A stretch of 64,000 nt of DNA from Sporosarcina sp. ANT_H38. GTDB taxonomy: Bacteria; Bacillota; Bacilli; Bacillales_A; Planococcaceae. The notes under the pieces were generated by a model. The model saw nothing but the letters and a program-made list of their open reading frames with translations. It had not been told where the DNA came from and made no database searches. The DNA is taken from NCBI RefSeq assembly GCF_008369195.1, contig NZ_VOBC01000004.1:329998-393997 (forward strand). The letters run 5' to 3'. Made by a program: the position numbers and the translations under genes. Shown here in pieces: positions 37,355 to 64,000 of this stretch; the stretch's first letter is position 1; each line of letters starts with the position of its first letter.

Positions 37355-39109
37355 TTATTCAGCCTTCGTAATCGAAGTTCCCGCCTGCAATTTATACATT
37401 TGCGCGTACTGCCCGTCAAGTATGAGCAATTCATCGTGTGAGCCTTGTTCAACAATCTCGCCACGATCTAACACTAAAATACGATCAGCGTTTTTTATAG
37501 TAGAAAGCCTATGGGCAATGATAAATGTCGTACGTCCTTTTTTCAGTACGTCCATAGCATGCTGAATGATTTCTTCCGTTTCAGTGTCGATGTTGGAAGT
37601 TGCTTCATCTAAAATAAGAATTGCTGGATCGAACGCAAGTGCACGTGCGAATGAAATAAGTTGACGCTGTCCAGAAGAAAGCGTGCTCCCTTTCTCCACA
37701 ACCGGCTCGTCAATCCCACCAGGTAAATGTTTCAATACTAGTTCCCCGCCAACAGCATCGAGTGAATGTTGCACCTTTTCGCGTGTAATACGCGGGTCAC
37801 CTAAGCTGATGTTAGACTCGACTGTTCCACTAAACAAGTAAGGATCTTGCAAGACAATGCCCATATGATCACGTACCGTCTGGCGCGGCATGTCGCTGAT
37901 ATTTAGCCCATCAATCGTAATCTTCCCTTTCGAAGCGTCATAGAAGCGGAACAATAAGTTCATGATTGAACTTTTCCCCGATCCGGTATGTCCAACAAGT
38001 GCGACCGTTTCCCCTTGTTTTGCTCCGAATGTAAGATCTTTCAAGACATATTCTTCATCCTTATAGGCGAACCAAACATTCTCAAAACGCACATTTCCTT
38101 GGTAGCGGGCGATTTTGTCGTCGCTTACTGGCTCCCCTTCGCGGTCCAACAGTTTGAATACGCGTTCAGCTGCAACAAGCGAATGCTCAAGTCGTGCGAA
38201 CTGGTTAACAATACCTGTCACGGGGTTGAACAACCGTGTAATGTAGTCAACGAATGCATAGAGCATCCCGACTGAAATGACACTTTCAGTGGTAATCGAT
38301 GCACCACCGAAATACCAAATAAAGAACACAAAGGTCAATGACCGGATTATGTCGACAAGGTTATGTGACGTTGCAGCCTCTACCTTCAACAGTTTGTTCT
38401 GATAGCGGAAGTGTTCATCATTCAGCTCGCGGAATTCCTCCTCCATCTGTGTCTCACGACGGAATGCCTGAATAATTGTCATCCCATTGATCGATTCGTT
38501 GATCATCGCGTTCATATCACTCACTTTTCCACGTATGATATGATTCACTTTTGAAGCAAACTTCCTATACGTCTTCATCCAAATATAAAGTATTGGCAGG
38601 ACGAATAGCGTGATTGCACCCATTTTAGGTTCTAAGATGAACATCGCAATGAAAATCCCAGTAATGTACATCCCACTAATCGCAAACTGTGAAACGACCG
38701 TTACATATAAGTTACGTATCGCTTCCGTATCATTCGTAATCCTTGCAACTACTTTTCCGGCAGGTAAATTATCAAAATATCGAATTGGCAATGTCTGAAT
38801 ATGTTCGTACAGATCATTACGCATCTTCTGAATGATTCGATTTGCCGCCTTTTGCATCAATAAATACTGGAAATACCTTAGTATTGCAGTGACGACTGCG
38901 AGCCCGAAGAAGATGGCAAGTAGTTTAGCAATCGGATTGAAATCAATTCCCCCACCTGGAGCTCCTGCAATATGATCATCTATGATTTTCTTGGCAATCA
39001 TTGGTCCCATCAGATCAGCAGCTACTGCGAACGCGAGAAGAACAATACCTGTCAGTAACAATTTTTTATAGTCAAGTGCGTAATGAAGTAATCGTTTACC
39101 GGTACTCAT
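37355..39109 (-). CDS. bmrD: Heterodimeric ABC exporter subunit, BmrD/YheH-like
   Basis: This 584-residue half-transporter has six membrane segments (residues about 15-300) and then an ATPase. The Walker A is GHTGSGKSS, the Walker B ILILDEATSNID has the catalytic glutamate, and the switch is AHRLS. The ABC signature is degenerate (LSSGQRQ). Together with BmrC this gives one canonical and one degenerate ATP site, as in known heterodimeric exporters. B. subtilis BmrD is longer (673), so an extracellular insertion is absent. ATG at 39109 follows GGGGAGG and is 1 nt from the bmrC stop. Multidrug efflux is inferred. Confidence 0.85.
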   Translation of the reverse strand: MSTGKRLLHYALDYKKLLLTGIVLLAFAVAADLMGPMIAKKIIDDHIAGAPGGGIDFNPIAKLLAIFFGLAVVTAILRYFQYLLMQKAANRIIQKMRNDLYEHIQTLPIRYFDNLPAGKVVARITNDTEAIRNLYVTVVSQFAISGMYITGIFIAMFILEPKMGAITLFVLPILYIWMKTYRKFASKVNHIIRGKVSDMNAMINESINGMTIIQAFRRETQMEEEFRELNDEHFRYQNKLLKVEAATSHNLVDIIRSLTFVFFIWYFGGASITTESVISVGMLYAFVDYITRLFNPVTGIVNQFARLEHSLVAAERVFKLLDREGEPVSDDKIARYQGNVRFENVWFAYKDEEYVLKDLTFGAKQGETVALVGHTGSGKSSIMNLLFRFYDASKGKITIDGLNISDMPRQTVRDHMGIVLQDPYLFSGTVESNISLGDPRITREKVQHSLDAVGGELVLKHLPGGIDEPVVEKGSTLSSGQRQLISFARALAFDPAILILDEATSNIDTETEEIIQHAMDVLKKGRTTFIIAHRLSTIKNADRILVLDRGEIVEQGSHDELLILDGQYAQMYKLQAGTSITKAE

Positions 39110-39110
39110 A

Positions 39111-40850
39111 TTATTCAACCTCCCCAATCTGTTGGCGGTCGAATTGCTCTTTGTACCAGCCGTTCATTCCAAGTAAGCCCTCATGTGTGCCTTCTTCAAT
39201 AACACACCCATCGTCAAGTACGATAATCCAATCCGCATGCTGAACAGCAGATAGTCGGTGTGTTGTAATGATTGTGGTTTTTCCAGAACGCTCCGCTTGA
39301 ATGTTTTCTATAATTTTCGCTTCCGTTTTCGCATCAACCGCAGAAAGCGAGTCATCTAAAATAAGAATCTCTGGATTTTTCACAAGTGCTCTCGCAATGG
39401 AAATCCGTTGTTTTTGTCCACCAGATAATGCGACGCCCTTCTCTCCGACGAGCGTTTCAAGTCCTTGCGGAAGCATTTCAAGATCTTTTTCAAAATAGGA
39501 GAGGCGAATCGTTTCCGCAATGTCCGCTTCCGACGCATCCGGCCTTCCAAATAAGATATTCTCTTTGACCGAACGTGAAAACAGGACATGATCTTGCGGT
39601 ACATAACCAATCCAGTCCCTTACCTGATCTTTTGTCATAGACTGCATTGGTACTCCTGAGAAAACAATTTCTCCTTCACCGGATGGATATTCACGCAGCA
39701 GCTGTTTAACAAACGTAGTCTTTCCACTTCCGGTTTTCCCAACTATCCCTAGCGTATCACCACGATTTAAATGGAGTTTTATAGCATCCAAGTTGACCGA
39801 GTGCGACGTCGGATAAGTGAAAGTAACGTCCCGGAAACCTACGCTATCAGGTTGGTCAACGTTTACAGGTTGATCAGGATCCTTCACATCTTCTTCGTAA
39901 TCAAGGGTTTCTGTCACCCGGTCGAGTGATGCATTTCCCCGTTGTAAGACGTTAATTAGCTCACCGATTGCAAACATCGGCCAAACAATCATCCCAAGAT
40001 AGACGTTAAAGGTAACTAGTTTCCCGAGCGTCATATCTCCAATAGAGACAAGGTAAGCGCCGTAACCAAGACCAATCATATATGTCAAGCCCGTTAGTAC
40101 TTTTGAAATCGGCATGAACAACGCGTCGATCTTCTCAACGTGCATATTCTTCTGATAGACATCTTCCGTCATTTCAGCAAACCCTTTTTCAGTTGCACGC
40201 TCCTGAACGTATGCACGCACAACCCTTACACCCGCTACCGCTTCTAAGACATTATCATTCAAATCTCCAAATACCTGTTGAGCCGTCATGTATCTTTCGT
40301 GAATTTTCTTTCCTAGAACCTGCATGATATACGCCAAAATTGGAAGCGGTAAAATCGCCACAAGTGTCAACTCCCATGACACGAGAAAGCCCATCGTCAA
40401 AACGAGTGTCAGTAAATAGAGCGTGGAATCGACAAGCGTCATAATGCCGAAACCTGCCGTCTCAGAAATTGCCCGTAAGTCATTTGTCGATCTAGCCATT
40501 AAGTCGCCCGTCTTATTTTTCTCATAAAACGTTGGGGTCATTTTCAGGAAATGTTGCATAAGATTACCTCGTAATTGTCGCTCGATGACATAAGCCCCAC
40601 CAAACAACTGGTATTGCCAAACGAAGTTACTTGCATAATTGAAAATCATGATCAAAAACATGGAACCGATGAAAATAGTGAGCAATCTGGCTGTCAACGT
40701 CTGTGTATAAATTGAGTCAATCGCCTGCCCAATCAGCCAGGGGGGTATAACAACAAGAATATTCGTCACCATTAGCAGAATAAGCGCAACTGTGTACCTC
40801 TTCCGATTCTCTTTAAAAAACCATTTTAATTTAACTAAAACTGAAAACAT
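39111..40850 (-). CDS. bmrC: Heterodimeric ABC exporter subunit, BmrC/YheI-like
   Basis: This 579-residue half-transporter (B. subtilis BmrC 585) has six membrane segments and then an ATPase with Walker A GKTGSGKTT and a canonical LSGGQKQR signature. Its Walker B ends ILILDDSLSAVD, aspartate replacing the catalytic glutamate, so its own site is degenerate and complements BmrD. The locus beside yheA, yheB and yheE matches B. subtilis bmrCD, which is induced by translation-inhibiting antibiotics through a leader. A comparable leader is present here (40851-41382). The ribosome site (GAAGG) is weak and distant. Confidence 0.88.
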   Translation of the reverse strand: MFSVLVKLKWFFKENRKRYTVALILLMVTNILVVIPPWLIGQAIDSIYTQTLTARLLTIFIGSMFLIMIFNYASNFVWQYQLFGGAYVIERQLRGNLMQHFLKMTPTFYEKNKTGDLMARSTNDLRAISETAGFGIMTLVDSTLYLLTLVLTMGFLVSWELTLVAILPLPILAYIMQVLGKKIHERYMTAQQVFGDLNDNVLEAVAGVRVVRAYVQERATEKGFAEMTEDVYQKNMHVEKIDALFMPISKVLTGLTYMIGLGYGAYLVSIGDMTLGKLVTFNVYLGMIVWPMFAIGELINVLQRGNASLDRVTETLDYEEDVKDPDQPVNVDQPDSVGFRDVTFTYPTSHSVNLDAIKLHLNRGDTLGIVGKTGSGKTTFVKQLLREYPSGEGEIVFSGVPMQSMTKDQVRDWIGYVPQDHVLFSRSVKENILFGRPDASEADIAETIRLSYFEKDLEMLPQGLETLVGEKGVALSGGQKQRISIARALVKNPEILILDDSLSAVDAKTEAKIIENIQAERSGKTTIITTHRLSAVQHADWIIVLDDGCVIEEGTHEGLLGMNGWYKEQFDRQQIGEVE

Positions 40851-40884
40851 AATCTAATCAACCTTCTTCCTTATTCTCTTACAA

Positions 40885-40944
40885 CTATCCGCTTTCTAGA
40901 GATTCCTTTTTCAATAATTTTCTTTGCTGATTGATGATTAACAT
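40885..40944 (-). CDS. Candidate second leader peptide (19 aa) upstream of bmrC
   Basis: The frame MLIINQQRKLLKKESLESG then stops 34 nt before the bmrC start. It has a very good site (AAAAGGAGTG, 6 nt before ATG 40944), stronger than that of bmrC itself. It could couple translation to bmrC or act as a sensor. Short and inferred. Confidence 0.45.
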   Translation of the reverse strand: MLIINQQRKLLKKESLESG

Positions 40945-41149
40945 CGTCAACACTCCTTTTCCTATTATTTGTTCCTACTTTATCCTGCAATAAGAATCCC
41001 TAACATACTCAACTTCTTTAAGTGGAGTATGAACGACTTCTTATTGCCCGAATGGTTCGGCTATATTAAGTAGGAGAAAATCGCCCCCACTTAATAAGTC
41101 CAACTTTATGCAACACGCAATGCGTGGAAACACCGAATTTCGTTTACAT

Positions 41150-41195
41150 TGAAAAATAAAAAAGAGCACACGCCTCTTAACATAAGCGTGTGCTC
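41150..41195 (-). terminator. Attenuator-like terminator in the bmrC leader
   Basis: GAGCACACGC pairs with GCGTGTGCTC, followed on the minus strand by TTTTTTATTTTTC. It lies about 300 nt before bmrC and just after a leader peptide. An upstream hairpin (GGAGCGGC with GCCGTTCC, about 41200-41224) may compete or regulate. Confidence 0.8.
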
Positions 41196-41247
41196 ATAAA
41201 AAGGAACGGCATATCGCGCCGCTCCGGGTATATTTAGTTTTAGAAAA

Positions 41248-41310
41248 CTAAAATGCGGATAGGCACGGTTTCATTTTATTATTTTTTGTGAACATGAATA
41301 CTTTTTTCAT
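41248..41310 (-). CDS. Leader peptide upstream of bmrC (20 aa, BmrB-like role)
   Basis: The frame MKKVFMFTKNNKMKPCLSAF then TAG starts at ATG 41310, with AGGGAGGT 8 nt upstream. It begins close to a TTGACA promoter and is followed by an intrinsic terminator. B. subtilis bmrCD is preceded by the 54-codon bmrB leader, whose translation governs antitermination. This peptide is shorter and not evidently homologous, but occupies the same position. Confidence 0.6.
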   Translation of the reverse strand: MKKVFMFTKNNKMKPCLSAF

Positions 41311-41352
41311 TTTCCGTACCTCCCTTTCTATTTCGAGTATCTAACTATATCT

Positions 41353-41382
41353 AGGTTATCATTACCATTTCTAAGATGTCAA
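41353..41382 (-). promoter_or_regulatory. Promoter of the bmrC leader
   Basis: On the minus strand a perfect TTGACA (41377-41382) is followed, after 16-18 nt, by a TGATAACC-like -10 region. The transcript would start about 40 nt before the leader peptide. Confidence 0.55.
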
Positions 41383-41840
41383 TACTTTTTGAAAATATAA
41401 TCACTTTGGAAATATCAATAAATATATGAATGAATGGATGAAGTTATTCTTCATACAGCAGTAAAAGAACTTAGTCTAAAAGCCAAGCGTCTTGCGGCAG
41501 TAAGGCAGCATAAATCGAATATAATACCAACAACAGCATACAAATTGAAGAACAGCTGCTTGTATGGTTGTAATCGCAACGAGAACGATAAAAATTCAAT
41601 AATTATCCAGTGTCACCTCTTCAGATTCAACTCTAAAACATTCAATATATACCGAAGAGCGCCGAAAAATGTCACCTCCATTTCAATTTTGCCCGAACAA
41701 TTTCTATGCTCTTTCTAATAGCTTTTTTGATACTTCCCCCTCTATCTTCTTTCCTACAAACATACAATAGACAAGAGTATCTATTTGTTTTTTTCTTGTA
41801 AATAAATTATCATAGAGTTAACTAAGGATTTTACCACTAT
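41383..41840. other. Intergenic region with no recognised gene
   Basis: This is an AT-rich stretch between the bmrC promoter and the YhdP-like gene. Open frames on either strand (for example plus 41434-41718) lack ribosome sites and recognisable motifs. Confidence 0.5.
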
Positions 41841-41897
41841 AGGAGGTGTACACTTTGTTCTCCCCCTCATTTGGGTTTGGAACAAAGTAATTATTTG
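41841..41897 (+). promoter_or_regulatory. Hairpin between ribosome site and TTG start
   Basis: AGGAGGTG lies at 41841-41848. A 9-bp perfect stem (ACTTTGTTC 41852-41860 with GAACAAAGT 41880-41888) follows, and TTG lies at 41895. Folding would bring the ribosome site to about 9 nt from that TTG. Unfolded, the ribosome site instead faces TTG 41855, which opens an 11-codon frame ending at 41890. Confidence 0.55.
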
Positions 41898-43238
41898 GAT
41901 ATTGCCATACGATTGGCAGCATTTGCTGTCTTGATCGCTCTCACCGCATTTTTTGTTGCGAGTGAATTTGCAATTGTGAAAATTAGAGCAACACGGATTG
42001 ACCAACTGGTAGCGGAGGGTAACCCACGTGCCGTAACTGCGAGAAAGGTAATTAGTAATTTGGACGAATATTTGTCCGCGTGCCAATTGGGTATTACAAT
42101 TACTGCTCTCGGACTCGGGATGCTCGGGGAACCAACTGTGAAATTAATGTTAAAACCGGTTTTCTCTTATTACGAATTGACAGCTAGTACTTCCAGTATC
42201 CTTTCATTCATTATCGCATTCACTTCAGTAACATTTTTGCATGTTGTTATAGGTGAATTGGCTCCTAAAACGATCGCGATTCAAAAAGCGGAAGCCATTA
42301 CGTTATTATTTTCAAAACCGCTTATTTTATTTTATCGCCTCATGTACCCTATCATTAAAGGTATGAACGGTTCTGCACGTCTCTTCGTTGGACTGCTTGG
42401 CTTTAAATCAATTTCAGAATCAGAAGTCGCTCATACAGAAGAAGAACTTCGGATGATTTTATCGGATAGTTTAAAAAGCGGCGAAATCAACCAAGCCGAA
42501 TATAAATATGTGAATAAGATCTTTGAATTTGATGACCGAATTGCCAATGAAATCATGGCCCCTCGGACAGAAATGATAACAATTGAAAAAGACATGACAT
42601 TACGCGAAGTATTCGACGTGATGGGTGTCGAACAATATACTCGCTACCCTGTTACGGATGGCGATAAAGACCATATTATTGGTCTGGTCAACATGAAAAA
42701 CCTATTGACCGCCTTCATTAAGGAACCTGAAACAGCAGGCAATCAGACGGTTTTCAATTATATGAAACCGATTATACATGTCATCGATACGATACCAATC
42801 GCCGACCTTCTACTCAAAATCCAACGAGAACGCATTCATATGGCGATTCTAATGGATGAATACGGAGGAACTTCCGGCCTTGTAACTATCGAAGATATTT
42901 TAGAAGAAATCGTCGGTGATATTCAAGATGAATTCGATATGAATGAAATACCAGAAATCCAAAACCTCGGGGAAAACCATTATATTTTTGACGCCAAGAT
43001 GCGCATCGAAAATGTTAATGATATCCTTGGTACATCAATTGACGAAGAGGATATCGATACAATCGGTGGCTGGTACATGACCCAGCGCTTCGAAGCAATC
43101 CAAGGCGAAAAGATTATTGAACACGGGTTTGAATTCATGGTGAAAGACGTGGACGGCCATCATATTCTCTACCTGGAAGTCTTTAAATATGAAGAGGATA
43201 AAGCTGACGATACTTCAGAATTGTCAATGGAGTCCTAA
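41895..43238 (+). CDS. yhdP: CNNM/hemolysin-C family protein, YhdP-like
   Basis: This 447-residue protein starts LDIAIRLAAFAVLIALTAFF and has a DUF21 membrane domain (about 1-200), two CBS domains (about 205-330, MAPRTEMITIEKDMTLREVF and HMAILMDEYGGTSGLVTIED) and a C-terminal CorC/HlyC domain. The family handles Mg2+/Co2+ export. TTG at 41895 gives an N terminus like B. subtilis YhdP (MDI...). Other TTGs at 41871 and 41877 remain possible. The initiation region folds as a hairpin. Confidence 0.88.
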   Translation: MDIAIRLAAFAVLIALTAFFVASEFAIVKIRATRIDQLVAEGNPRAVTARKVISNLDEYLSACQLGITITALGLGMLGEPTVKLMLKPVFSYYELTASTSSILSFIIAFTSVTFLHVVIGELAPKTIAIQKAEAITLLFSKPLILFYRLMYPIIKGMNGSARLFVGLLGFKSISESEVAHTEEELRMILSDSLKSGEINQAEYKYVNKIFEFDDRIANEIMAPRTEMITIEKDMTLREVFDVMGVEQYTRYPVTDGDKDHIIGLVNMKNLLTAFIKEPETAGNQTVFNYMKPIIHVIDTIPIADLLLKIQRERIHMAILMDEYGGTSGLVTIEDILEEIVGDIQDEFDMNEIPEIQNLGENHYIFDAKMRIENVNDILGTSIDEEDIDTIGGWYMTQRFEAIQGEKIIEHGFEFMVKDVDGHHILYLEVFKYEEDKADDTSELSMES

Positions 43239-61716: not shown

Positions 61717-61797
61717 TACCCGAGGCCGGACTTGAACCGGCACGCCTTACGGCATCGCATTTTGAGTGCGACGTGTCTGCCATTCCACCACTCGGGC
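61717..61797 (-). tRNA. tRNA-Leu (CAA)
   Basis: Long variable arm; acceptor GCCCGAG/CTCGGGT; anticodon CAA. No encoded CCA. Last gene of the operon. Confidence 0.95.
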
Positions 61798-61841
61798 ATA
61801 CTAATATTCATTTCACCAACAATGATACATAAGAAAATTGG

Positions 61842-61912
61842 AGGCGGCAACCGGAATCGAACCGGTGGTAAGGGTGTTGCAGACCCATGCCTTACCGCTT
61901 GGCTATGCCGCC
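61842..61912 (-). tRNA. tRNA-Cys (GCA)
   Basis: Acceptor GGCGGCA/TGCCGCC; anticodon GCA; no encoded CCA. Confidence 0.95.
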
Positions 61913-61922
61913 ATATGAAATG

Positions 61923-61997
61923 TGGAGCGGAAGACGGGATTCGAACCCGCGACCCCGACCTTGGCAAGGTCGTATTCTACCACTGAACTACTTCCGC
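61923..61997 (-). tRNA. tRNA-Gly (GCC)
   Basis: Acceptor GCGGAAG/CTTCCGC; anticodon GCC; CCA encoded. Confidence 0.95.
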
Positions 61998-62001
61998 GAA
62001 A

Positions 62002-62073
62002 CTGGGGTAGCTGGATTCGAACCAACGAGTGACGGAGTCAAAGTCCGTTGCCTTACCGCTTGGCTATACCCCA
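62002..62073 (-). tRNA. tRNA-Gln (TTG)
   Basis: Acceptor TGGGGTA/TACCCCA; anticodon TTG; no encoded CCA. Confidence 0.95.
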
Positions 62074-62083
62074 AAAAGATAAA

Positions 62084-62160
62084 TGGGGCGACTGAAGGGA
62101 ATCGAACCCTCGAGTGTCGGAACCACAATCCGATGTGTTAACCACTTCACCACAATCGCC
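62084..62160 (-). tRNA. tRNA-His (GTG), copy 3 of 3
   Basis: Anticodon GTG with the extra 5' G typical of tRNA-His; CCA encoded. Identical to the next two genes. Confidence 0.95.
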
Positions 62161-62194
62161 ATGATATCTAATTTGTTTTCATTGATTATAAAAA

Positions 62195-62271
62195 TGGGGC
62201 GACTGAAGGGAATCGAACCCTCGAGTGTCGGAACCACAATCCGATGTGTTAACCACTTCACCACAATCGCC
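62195..62271 (-). tRNA. tRNA-His (GTG), copy 2 of 3
   Basis: Same 77-nt sequence as its two neighbours, with similar AT-rich spacers. Confidence 0.95.
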
Positions 62272-62306
62272 ATGATATATAATTTTGTTTTCATTGGATA
62301 TAAAAA

Positions 62307-62383
62307 TGGGGCGACTGAAGGGAATCGAACCCTCGAGTGTCGGAACCACAATCCGATGTGTTAACCACTTCACCACAATCGCC
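62307..62383 (-). tRNA. tRNA-His (GTG), copy 1 of 3
   Basis: First of three identical tandem tRNA-His genes in transcription order. Confidence 0.95.
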
Positions 62384-62408
62384 ATGATATTAGATTAAAC
62401 TAAAAAAA

Positions 62409-62482
62409 TGGCAGGGGCAGTAGGAATCGAACCCACATCAAAGGTGTTGGAGACCTCTATTCTACCGTTAAACTATGCCCCT
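62409..62482 (-). tRNA. tRNA-Trp (CCA)
   Basis: Acceptor AGGGGCA/TGCCCCT; anticodon loop CTCCAAC gives CCA; 3' CCA encoded. Confidence 0.93.
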
Positions 62483-62489
62483 ACAAAAA

Positions 62490-62574
62490 TGGTGGTGGGG
62501 GGCGGATTCGAACCGCCGAACCCGTAGGGAGCGGATTTACAGTCCGCCGCGTTTAGCCACTTCGCTACCCCACC
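62490..62574 (-). tRNA. tRNA-Tyr (GTA)
   Basis: Long variable arm; anticodon GTA; acceptor GGTGGGG; CCA encoded. Confidence 0.95.
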
Positions 62575-62587
62575 ATATTGGTGTAAA

Positions 62588-62663
<76 letters not shown>

Positions 62664-62676
62664 ACATATATTAGAA

Positions 62677-62752
62677 TGGTGGCTCAGGACGGAATCGAAC
62701 CGCCGACACAAGGATTTTCAGTCCTTTGCTCTACCGACTGAGCTACTGAGCC
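62677..62752 (-). tRNA. tRNA-Phe (GAA)
   Basis: Acceptor GGCTCAG; anticodon GAA; CCA encoded. Confidence 0.95.
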
Positions 62753-62811
62753 ACATATTTGGTTTACATTAAGCCGTTAGCTCTTTCTAAACCTTAAAGT
62801 ATTAATAAAAA

Positions 62812-62887
62812 TGGCGGTCCCGACCGGGATCGAACCGGCGATCTCCTGCGTGACAGGCAGGCATGTTAACCGCTACACCACGGGACC
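62812..62887 (-). tRNA. tRNA-Asp (GTC)
   Basis: Acceptor GGTCCCG/CGGGACC; anticodon GTC; CCA encoded. Confidence 0.95.
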
Positions 62888-62889
62888 AT

Positions 62890-62965
<76 letters not shown>

Positions 62966-63051
62966 ACAACAATATAAACTATTAATTTAATAATGAACTT
63001 GAATGTCTAATCAAAAACCAATTATGTAATTCACTGCTTTATGATTAAAAT

Positions 63052-63127
<76 letters not shown>

Positions 63128-63154
63128 ACAGTATTATTTATAGAGTAAATGTAA

Positions 63155-63230
63155 TGGTGGAGGATGACGGGCTCGAACCGCCGACCCCCTGCTTGTAAGG
63201 CAGGTGCTCTCCCAGCTGAGCTAATCCTCC
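63155..63230 (-). tRNA. tRNA-Val (TAC)
   Basis: Acceptor GGAGGAT/ATCCTCC; anticodon TAC; CCA encoded. Confidence 0.95.
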
Positions 63231-63305
63231 TGGGTAAAATTTTCTTCATCACGTATAGTGTGCGTTTATGAATACTCTTTTCAAAACTTCGTTTTAAAAA
63301 AGTAA

Positions 63306-63380
63306 TGGTGACCCCTACGGGATTCGAACCCGTGATACCGCCGTGAAAGGGCGGTGTCTTAACCGCTTGACCAAGGGGCC
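63306..63380 (-). tRNA. tRNA-Glu (TTC)
   Basis: Acceptor GGCCCCT/AGGGGTC; anticodon TTC; CCA encoded. Confidence 0.95.
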
Positions 63381-63402
63381 TTTATTATTATTTATGTGAA
63401 TC

Positions 63403-63494
63403 TGGCGGAGAGCAAGGGATTTGAACCCTTGAAACAGCGTTAGCCGCTTACATGATTTCCAATCATGCTCCTTCGGCCACTCGGACAGCTCTCC
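63403..63494 (-). tRNA. tRNA-Ser (GGA)
   Basis: Long variable arm; anticodon GGA; acceptor GGAGAGC/GCTCTCC; CCA encoded. Confidence 0.95.
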
Positions 63495-63498
63495 TAAA

Positions 63499-63573
63499 TG
63501 GCTCCGCAGGTAGGACTCGAACCTACGACCGATCGGTTAACAGCCGATTGCTCTACCACTGAGCTACTGCGGA
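63499..63573 (-). tRNA. tRNA-Asn (GTT)
   Basis: Acceptor TCCGCAG/CTGCGGA; anticodon GTT; CCA encoded. First tRNA after 5S rRNA. Confidence 0.95.
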
Positions 63574-63619
63574 ATAATAACAAAGATCATACAATGAGTA
63601 TGTTCTTTTGGACTAACAG

Positions 63620-63734
<115 letters not shown>

Positions 63735-63881
63735 CTATTTTCCACAAGACAAGATTAAGTATATCATATCTTGTTGGATCTTGCAAGCGTTTTTTACAAA
63801 ATAATTAATTTTGTTCGCTCAAAACTGAATAAAACAGACATTGTGCTACACAGAATCAGGGTAATCAAGCCCTTTTTCAAA

Positions 63882-64000
63882 ATTGGTTAAGTCCTCGATC
63901 GATTAGTATCCGTCAGCTCCACACGTCGCCGCGCTTCCACCCCAGACCTATCAACCTCATCTTCTTTGAGGGATCTTACTTACTTGCGTAATGGGAAATC
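63882..64000 (-). rRNA. rrl: 23S ribosomal RNA, 3' end (partial)
   Basis: The sequence GGTTGATAGGTCTGGGGTGG, then GTGTGGAGCTGACGGATACT and AATCGATCGAGGACTTAACC, is the terminal domain of 23S rRNA. The gene continues beyond the window. Confidence 0.95.

Follow-up and report, generated by a model that had tools for sequence, protein, structure and literature searches.

In Bacillus subtilis, the multidrug transporter genes bmrCD are preceded by the bmrB attenuator, in which, according to the accessible passages of its description, translation of a leader is needed for drug-induced read-through (Reilman 2014; PMC4191407). In these passages, blocked leader translation lowered expression and abolished induction by lincomycin. 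Excerpts of the B. subtilis work further describe that mutation of the bmrB terminator at positions 136 and 140 abolished control, that three different 50S drugs induce bmrCD, and that rare-codon changes in the leader left fold induction intact. They also describe an in-frame BmrB-GFP fusion giving fluorescence from a plasmid and none from the chromosome, and a leader start mutant in which alternative starts and ribosome sites were altered as well. Control of the same mRNA by decay is indicated by the title of Deves (2023; RNA 29:1108), which states that a cryptic ORF in the B. subtilis bmrCD mRNA is cleaved by Rae1, and by a passage citing Leroy (2017), where bmrC and bmrD are among seven candidates for direct decay by Rae1.

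The leader described here lies upstream of bmrCD in Sporosarcina sp. ANT_H38, within a stretch of 64,000 nucleotides that is referred to as the window. As far as the excerpts of PMC4191407 go, it resembles the bmrB attenuator in having the same transporter genes, a small ORF ahead of an intrinsic terminator, and alternative structures. It differs in that bmrB as annotated (162 nt, GTG start) contains the terminator, whereas the first small ORF of the window (ORF1) ends before both of its terminators, and in that terminator 2 and the second small ORF (ORF2) are separated by an inserted copy of a repeat. The available part of the description of the B. subtilis vmlR leader (Takada 2022; PMC9226507) likewise combines uORF-controlled attenuation, with anti-antiterminator, antiterminator and terminator structures, with a second layer of control; in vmlR, however, the uORF has three codons (MIN), a hairpin that sequesters the SD serves as the second layer in place of a second ORF, and the gene family is another.

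Our main reading, to which we give a probability of roughly two in three, is that the leader places two locks on bmrCD, both opened by translation inhibitors: transcription attenuation governed by ORF1, and cutting of ORF2 by the ribosome-associated nuclease Rae1. We place the leader as a well-conserved case of a known regulatory kind, to which the reading frame of the B. subtilis leader and a copied cassette add modest new leads. On this reading, attenuation and translation-dependent decay, which have been studied separately as controls of the same multidrug pump, would meet in a single leader that occurs across many Bacilli.

Organization of the bmrCD leader and its relatives

Re-reading of the sequence gave the order promoter, 20-codon ORF1, two terminator hairpins, 19-codon ORF2 and bmrC, all on the minus strand. 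A previous sequence-only reading had noted a bmrC leader with two small ORFs and attenuator hairpins, and this observation is confirmed: the TTGACA promoter, ORF1, the hairpin, the terminator, ORF2 and the gap of 34 nt to bmrC had all been placed correctly. Three features are additional to it, namely that hairpin 1 is itself terminator-like, that the 3′ end of ORF1 is a pairing partner of its SD, and that a repeat copy is present at 40974-41107.

The promoter (41353..41382, minus strand) consists of TTGACA (41382-41377), an 18-nt spacer and TGA-TAACCT; in register with the relatives, its −10 element (41358-41353) is a weak hexamer with an extended TG, and the promoter was not among the sites listed by a consensus promoter scan. 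A TTGAC(A/C/T) hexamer was found 5′ of ORF1 in all 32 Sporosarcina-like leaders, the counting script having used the last match, which is out of register in three of them (L017, L024 and L026). The genes 3′ of the leader encode BmrC/BmrD orthologues, the best matches among solved structures (PDB) being B. subtilis YheI for bmrC (39111..40850, minus strand, ATG at 40850; 805 bits) and YheH for bmrD (37355..39127, minus strand, with a listed TTG start that overlaps bmrC; 749 bits). The ribosome site of bmrC, AGAAGG at 40862..40867 (minus strand), is weak, as had been remarked earlier. A second BmrC-like half-transporter gene, 43% identical, is found elsewhere in the same genome (G000:C1:1173818-1175536).

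The leader folded better than all of 100 shuffles (z −6.1), and a terminator scan of both strands of 40500-42000 gave three terminator-like sites against 0.9 expected. No Rfam family was found over the leader at gathering score, the best weak match reaching 20.6 bits where the gathering score is 55, and none was found in four related loci. Two matches to Bacillaceae-1 RNA (Rfam RF01690) were seen at the left end of the window on the plus strand (219-285 and 436-501). The end of an rRNA operon, made up of the 23S end, 5S and many closely spaced tRNA genes, occupies 61717-64000 on the minus strand.

For comparison, the region 5′ of bmrC was extracted from 199 loci, drawn from genus, family and class searches, 80 named loci and the B. 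subtilis genus; judged by the last 200 nt, these comprise 160 distinct leaders. A close BmrC orthologue (63% or more) was present in 40 of the 61 genomes of the genus sample, in one of the 40 in two pieces. By BmrC, the nearest named relatives were Sporosarcina at 93-95%, in a sample from which records very near the window may be missing. B. subtilis itself is represented by locus L180 (genome G649), which matched the B. subtilis BmrC chain at 100% over 306 residues and whose bmrB (162 nt, GTG start, with 119 nt from its end to bmrC) is consistent with the accessible description (PMC4191407). The B. subtilis group comprises 27 leaders (L180, L150-L152 and L181-L203), with the same-genus loci L155, L156, L204 and L205 left out. 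In this comparison across relatives, which the sequence-only reading had proposed as a check, both small ORFs proved to be conserved, and the mutually exclusive pairings received comparative support from 32 Sporosarcina-like leaders.

ORF1 and the probable attenuator

ORF1 (MKKVFMFTKNNKMKPCLSAF; 41248..41310, minus strand), a translatable leader ORF with its own SD ahead of the intrinsic terminators, was present in all 32 distinct Sporosarcina-like leaders. Its residues are hardly conserved among these leaders outside the pairing region; structure is kept instead, and CCGTGCC-like letters in the 3′ end of ORF1 pair with ORF1's own SD region. Region 1 (41309..41325, minus strand) comprises the SD, GGGAGG (41324-41319), and the next bases, and region 2 (CCGTGCCTATCCG; 41256..41268, minus strand), the 3′ end of ORF1, can take either region 1 or region 3 as its partner. 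For pairing 1:2, 98.2% of cells were paired in the 32 leaders, with C-G replaced by U-A in two rows, and at most 55.8% when the arms were slid. Since shuffled columns already give 97.1%, the support for this pairing is mostly conservation plus a few changes, and two of five covariation measures did not exceed those of the shuffles (both-side changes, 59/500; pair types, 497/500). Against dinucleotide shuffles, the 1:2 duplex had a mean z of −2.54, with 23 of 32 leaders below −1.64. Among the 128 other distinct leaders, ORF1 was found in 115, and the mean z of 1:2 was −2.36 (111 below zero, 70 below −1.64); the remaining 13 lacked ORF1 by the SD patterns used, and because of such misses and of picks that may be wrong ORFs, the rate is not to be read as a prevalence.

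The antiterminator joins region 2 to region 3 (CGGAGCGGCGCG; 41215..41226, minus strand), which overlaps terminator 1 at the 5′ arm and the loop. Both terminators were given by the terminator scan: terminator 1 (41203..41225, minus strand) is followed by T5, and terminator 2 (41164..41195, minus strand), followed by T6, is the better conserved hairpin (98.1% vs 89.8% of cells paired). For pairing 2:3, 83.6% of cells were paired, with 22 cells changed on both sides, and none of 500 shuffles was as high, either on cells paired or on covariation score. At most 43.6% were paired when slid, a control that favours the 2:3 register somewhat because the register was taken from a duplex search and then counted on the same 32 sequences. 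Leader by leader, the 2:3 duplex had a mean z of −1.6, being below zero in 31 of 32 and below −1.64 in 14. The comparison of leaders thus provides a precise, testable antiterminator. A first antiterminator register, CCGUGCC:GGAGCGG, had fair counts (89.5% of cells paired; 4/500 shuffles on covariation score) and was rejected for a constant mismatch and an ensemble mean probability of 0.00-0.04.

In the first lock, two partners would compete for region 2: region 1, with the SD of ORF1, and region 3, at the 5′ arm of terminator 1. With no ribosome loaded, 1:2 would form and terminator 1 could form; with a ribosome at the stop codon of ORF1, region 2 would be covered and terminator 1 would form. 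Only a ribosome held early in ORF1 would leave region 2 free for region 3, so that terminator 1 would be delayed. This logic looks like that of a classic attenuator, with read-through expected only from an early, slow ribosome. It agrees with the effects of blocked leader translation in B. subtilis, and we infer that transcripts terminate here in the cell and that drugs relieve this termination.

In predicted folds of the window's nascent RNA, the antiterminator was the predicted structure at 118 nt with a ribosome on the start codon (−20.7 kcal/mol). A ribosome on the stop codon excluded the antiterminator, terminator 1 being formed at 127 nt; in ribosome-free RNA of at least 127 nt, the minimum was SD:anti-SD plus terminator 1. 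The 118-nt RNA had the antiterminator as its minimum in the absence of a ribosome as well, and once 127 nt were transcribed the minimum was again terminator 1, even with the ribosome at the start; the switch of the window must therefore be kinetic, by folding order. Of the 32 leaders put through an ensemble test, which had been set up for another antiterminator register but scored terminator 1 itself, 9 showed a clear effect of start versus stop on this terminator in the expected direction, and 2 showed the reverse. By comparison and folding, and more weakly in the ensemble test, antiterminator and terminator 1 come out as mutually exclusive, with the position of the ribosome predicted to set which of them forms.

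None of the conserved pairings found competes with terminator 2, the better conserved hairpin, which weighs against the first lock. With a ribosome placed at the start, part of the 5′ arm of terminator 2 was paired in the window fold. The pairing of terminator 2 with early ORF1 codons seen in this fold was not kept in L004 and was dropped as a candidate. Two terminators in series, and an antiterminator that makes no contact with the second, are what might be expected if the leader were non-regulatory, bmrC transcription starting 3′ of the terminators and the hairpins ending an unrelated small transcript. We hold this to be very improbable, as the exclusive pairings and the ORFs are conserved, B. 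subtilis offers a precedent, and a coarse consensus scan gave no promoter-like site on the minus strand between terminator 2 and bmrC.

The sequence-only reading had proposed that ribosome stalling on the first peptide prevents termination under translation inhibitors. Comparison and folding support ribosome-controlled attenuation on ORF1; since ORF1 residues are unconserved beyond the needs of pairing, a general sensor of slow ribosomes is a likelier function than drug-specific arrest. Most characterised drug-sensing leader peptides act by drug-specific arrest, and ORF1 as such an arrest peptide would follow the typical mode. Set against this are the poor conservation of its residues among the 32 leaders and, in B. 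subtilis, induction by three different 50S drugs and the fold induction kept after rare-codon changes, and we consider drug-specific arrest by ORF1 quite improbable.

ORF2 and Rae1

ORF2 (MLIINQQRKLLKKESLESG; 40885..40944, minus strand) has 19 codons, is preceded by the SD AAAAGGAG, ends in KKESLESG-TAG and has its stop 34 nt 5′ of the bmrC ATG. A peptide-blind picker, which required an SD of 4 nt or more, a length of 10-40 codons and a stop 10-60 nt 5′ of bmrC, gave a candidate in 144 of the 160 distinct leaders, and in 119 of the 160 the candidate ends like L-E-(S/G)-(G/D), by a regular expression that was composed after the sequences were seen. On shuffled leaders, the same picker gave on average 52.8 candidates and 0.35 motifs, with at most 2 motifs in 20 rounds. 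The 25 candidates without the motif include ORF2-like ends (LEGE in L030, AEGG in L034, DPD in L105, KEGG in L125 and L127) and loci at which the picker chose another frame (L180 and kin, L106). In 16 leaders the picker found no candidate, among them two Kurthia loci (L113 and L116) and one Paenibacillus locus (L115). The motif was found in, among other genera, Sporosarcina, Paenisporosarcina, Planococcus, Viridibacillus, Psychrobacillus, Lysinibacillus, Niallia, Geobacillus, Neobacillus and Metabacillus.

Pairwise codon differences among the 26 distinct Sporosarcina-like ORF2 strings were 606 synonymous to 260 non-synonymous, against 39:669 and 112:643 in the shifted frames; judged by these differences, ORF2 is conserved as a protein-coding frame. 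All 26 of these strings stop with TAG, as do 86 of the full set of 103 distinct strings, counts that do not represent independent cases because the rows are related; by comparison, TAG closes 3 of the window's 36 long open frames. Also considered as a feature of ORF2, a slippery AAAAAAG was dropped, the corresponding letters being AUCAAG in Paenisporosarcina.

A small hairpin, CACGC-ATT-GCGTG (41114..41126, minus strand), lies 5′ of ORF2 and co-occurs with it in the leader comparison: of the 28 Sporosarcina-like leaders that have ORF2, 27 carry the hairpin, and none of the 4 that lack ORF2 does. Its stems vary with pairing kept (CACGT/ACGTG, CACAG/CTGTG, CACGG/CCGTG). In the four Sporosarcina-like leaders L023, L024, L025 and L029, ORF1 and both terminator hairpins are kept, and ORF2 and the small hairpin are jointly absent.

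In the B. subtilis locus L180, a second ORF of 26 codons, with a GTG start and the end KIEGG-TGA, has its stop 17 nt before bmrC, inside the 119-nt gap between bmrB and bmrC. The cryptic ORF cut by Rae1 is reportedly called bmrX and is said to have 26 codons and to lie between bmrB and bmrC; its cutting is said to depend on translation and frame and to remove leaked transcripts. The ORF of L180 fits this. The layout with two peptides had been taken to set the present leader apart from a single bmrB leader. This does not hold: given the second ORF in L180 and ORF2, by the picker, in 119 of 160 distinct leaders, the two-ORF layout is common to B. subtilis and most of the leaders sampled, and is not new.

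ORF2 resembles the cryptic ORF in being a small ORF between attenuator and bmrC, in its C-terminus (LESG in the window, KIEGG in L180) and in the presence of Rae1; it differs in having 19 codons and TAG, against 26 codons and TGA in L180, and in that its cleavage is predicted. The small ORF between attenuator and bmrC was recognised in the window by position, coding conservation and spread, its translation likewise being predicted. Rae1 (YacP) is encoded in the same genome (PF05991, 190.6 bits; G000:C3:239587-240075). It was found in 40 of 41 genomes tested, of which 25 have ORF2 and 16 do not, as sorted by eye and by the picker (two of the 25, G398 and G610, are without the motif). The sole genome without Rae1 also lacks ORF2, and 15 others have Rae1 and no ORF2; since Rae1 occurs both with and without ORF2, its presence says little. 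Another target of Rae1 is S1025.

From the match in position and length to the B. subtilis cryptic ORF, together with Rae1 in the genome, we read ORF2 as a second, decay-based lock and as the probable counterpart of that ORF. In this lock, translation of ORF2 would allow Rae1 to cut there, removing transcripts that escape the first lock, and such cleavage is what we would expect in this Sporosarcina species. The leaders collected here also offer a large natural alignment of ORF2 for reading what Rae1 recognises.

It had also been suggested that the second peptide may couple or gate the translation of bmrC, ribosomes that finish ORF2 opening or feeding its weak start site. The layout agrees with this, as bmrC has a weak SD and starts a short way past the stop of ORF2 (34 nt in the window, 17-44 nt in the motif rows checked). 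The conservation of ORF2, however, falls on its final codons and its stop, neither of which a coupler would need; the length of the gap varies, and four Sporosarcina-like leaders do without ORF2. A hairpin of the ORF2 end with the bmrC SD was present in some leaders only and was dropped as a candidate. We therefore consider a coupler unlikely, and a site of decay by Rae1 the more likely role of ORF2.

Residues conserved just before the stop, and a stop codon that is TAG far more often in ORF2 than in the long frames of the window, would also suit an arrest peptide, whose C-terminus pauses the ribosome at the stop, alone or with a drug, and so protects or opens the bmrC message. The stops of the B. 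subtilis group are nevertheless TGA or TAA, the residues vary (SG, GG, GD, DG), and to our knowledge the C-terminus holds no known arrest motif, so that arrest on ORF2 seems quite unlikely. It may coexist with cutting by Rae1, which could need a paused ribosome.

The leader frame in B. subtilis

The terminator that was mutated in B. subtilis, by the accessible description, corresponds to nt 118-141 of bmrB in L180 and by order matches terminator 2 rather than terminator 1, a further point against the first lock. The annotated bmrB frame is poorly conserved in the B. subtilis group: of the 27 leaders, 8 keep it open over at least 45 codons, and 9 have a GTG at that place. An ATG ORF with a strong SD, in another frame and 16 nt 5′ of the bmrB start, was present in all 27. 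This ORF of L180 makes a better counterpart of ORF1 than bmrB as annotated, an indication that the frame annotated for the B. subtilis leader peptide is not the right one. The start mutant, as excerpted, cannot separate the two frames because alternative starts and ribosome sites were changed too, and the plasmid fluorescence of the BmrB-GFP fusion argues for some translation of the annotated frame. A literature search, with most subscription papers outside its reach, found no paper making this point about the frame.

Extra leader copies and a dispersed repeat

A degenerate DNA pattern for the end of ORF2 was searched for in the 61 genus genomes and gave 26 places in 23 genomes, with none for a reversed control; 23 of the 26 places are at bmrC by position. 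In three genomes the whole leader is duplicated (L235, L254 and L260 in G057, G014 and G039), the extra copies carrying ORF1, both terminator hairpins, the small hairpin and ORF2. They precede two small ORFs of 40 and 65 codons, neither of which had a Pfam match.

A bolder reading, which we regard as doubtful, joins these observations. The leader would be a portable two-lock cassette of Bacilli, with the B. subtilis sensor being the 23-codon ORF with a strong SD in another frame and not the 53-codon bmrB; the end of ORF2 (approximately L-E-S/G-G-UAG) would act as a nascent-chain and stop-codon signal for Rae1; and the cassette would have been copied before an unrelated small operon in three Sporosarcina-like genomes. 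If this were true, the copied cassette would give the small operon the same drug-opened control.

The repeat copy between terminator 2 and ORF2 (40974-41107, minus strand) is about 130 nt long, with two hairpins, and is MITE-like. A copy was present in 7 of 28 measured leaders; by the distance measure used, 22 loci gave no value, being duplicates or without ORF2, and the value for L025 is meaningless. A covariance model built from the 7 leader copies found no copies in 14 of 21 genomes, including all 8 outside the genus. With the same model, 8 copies were found in the window's own genome and 25, 16 and 15 in three relatives, and the repeat is perhaps, as a guess, of an IS200/IS605-like kind.
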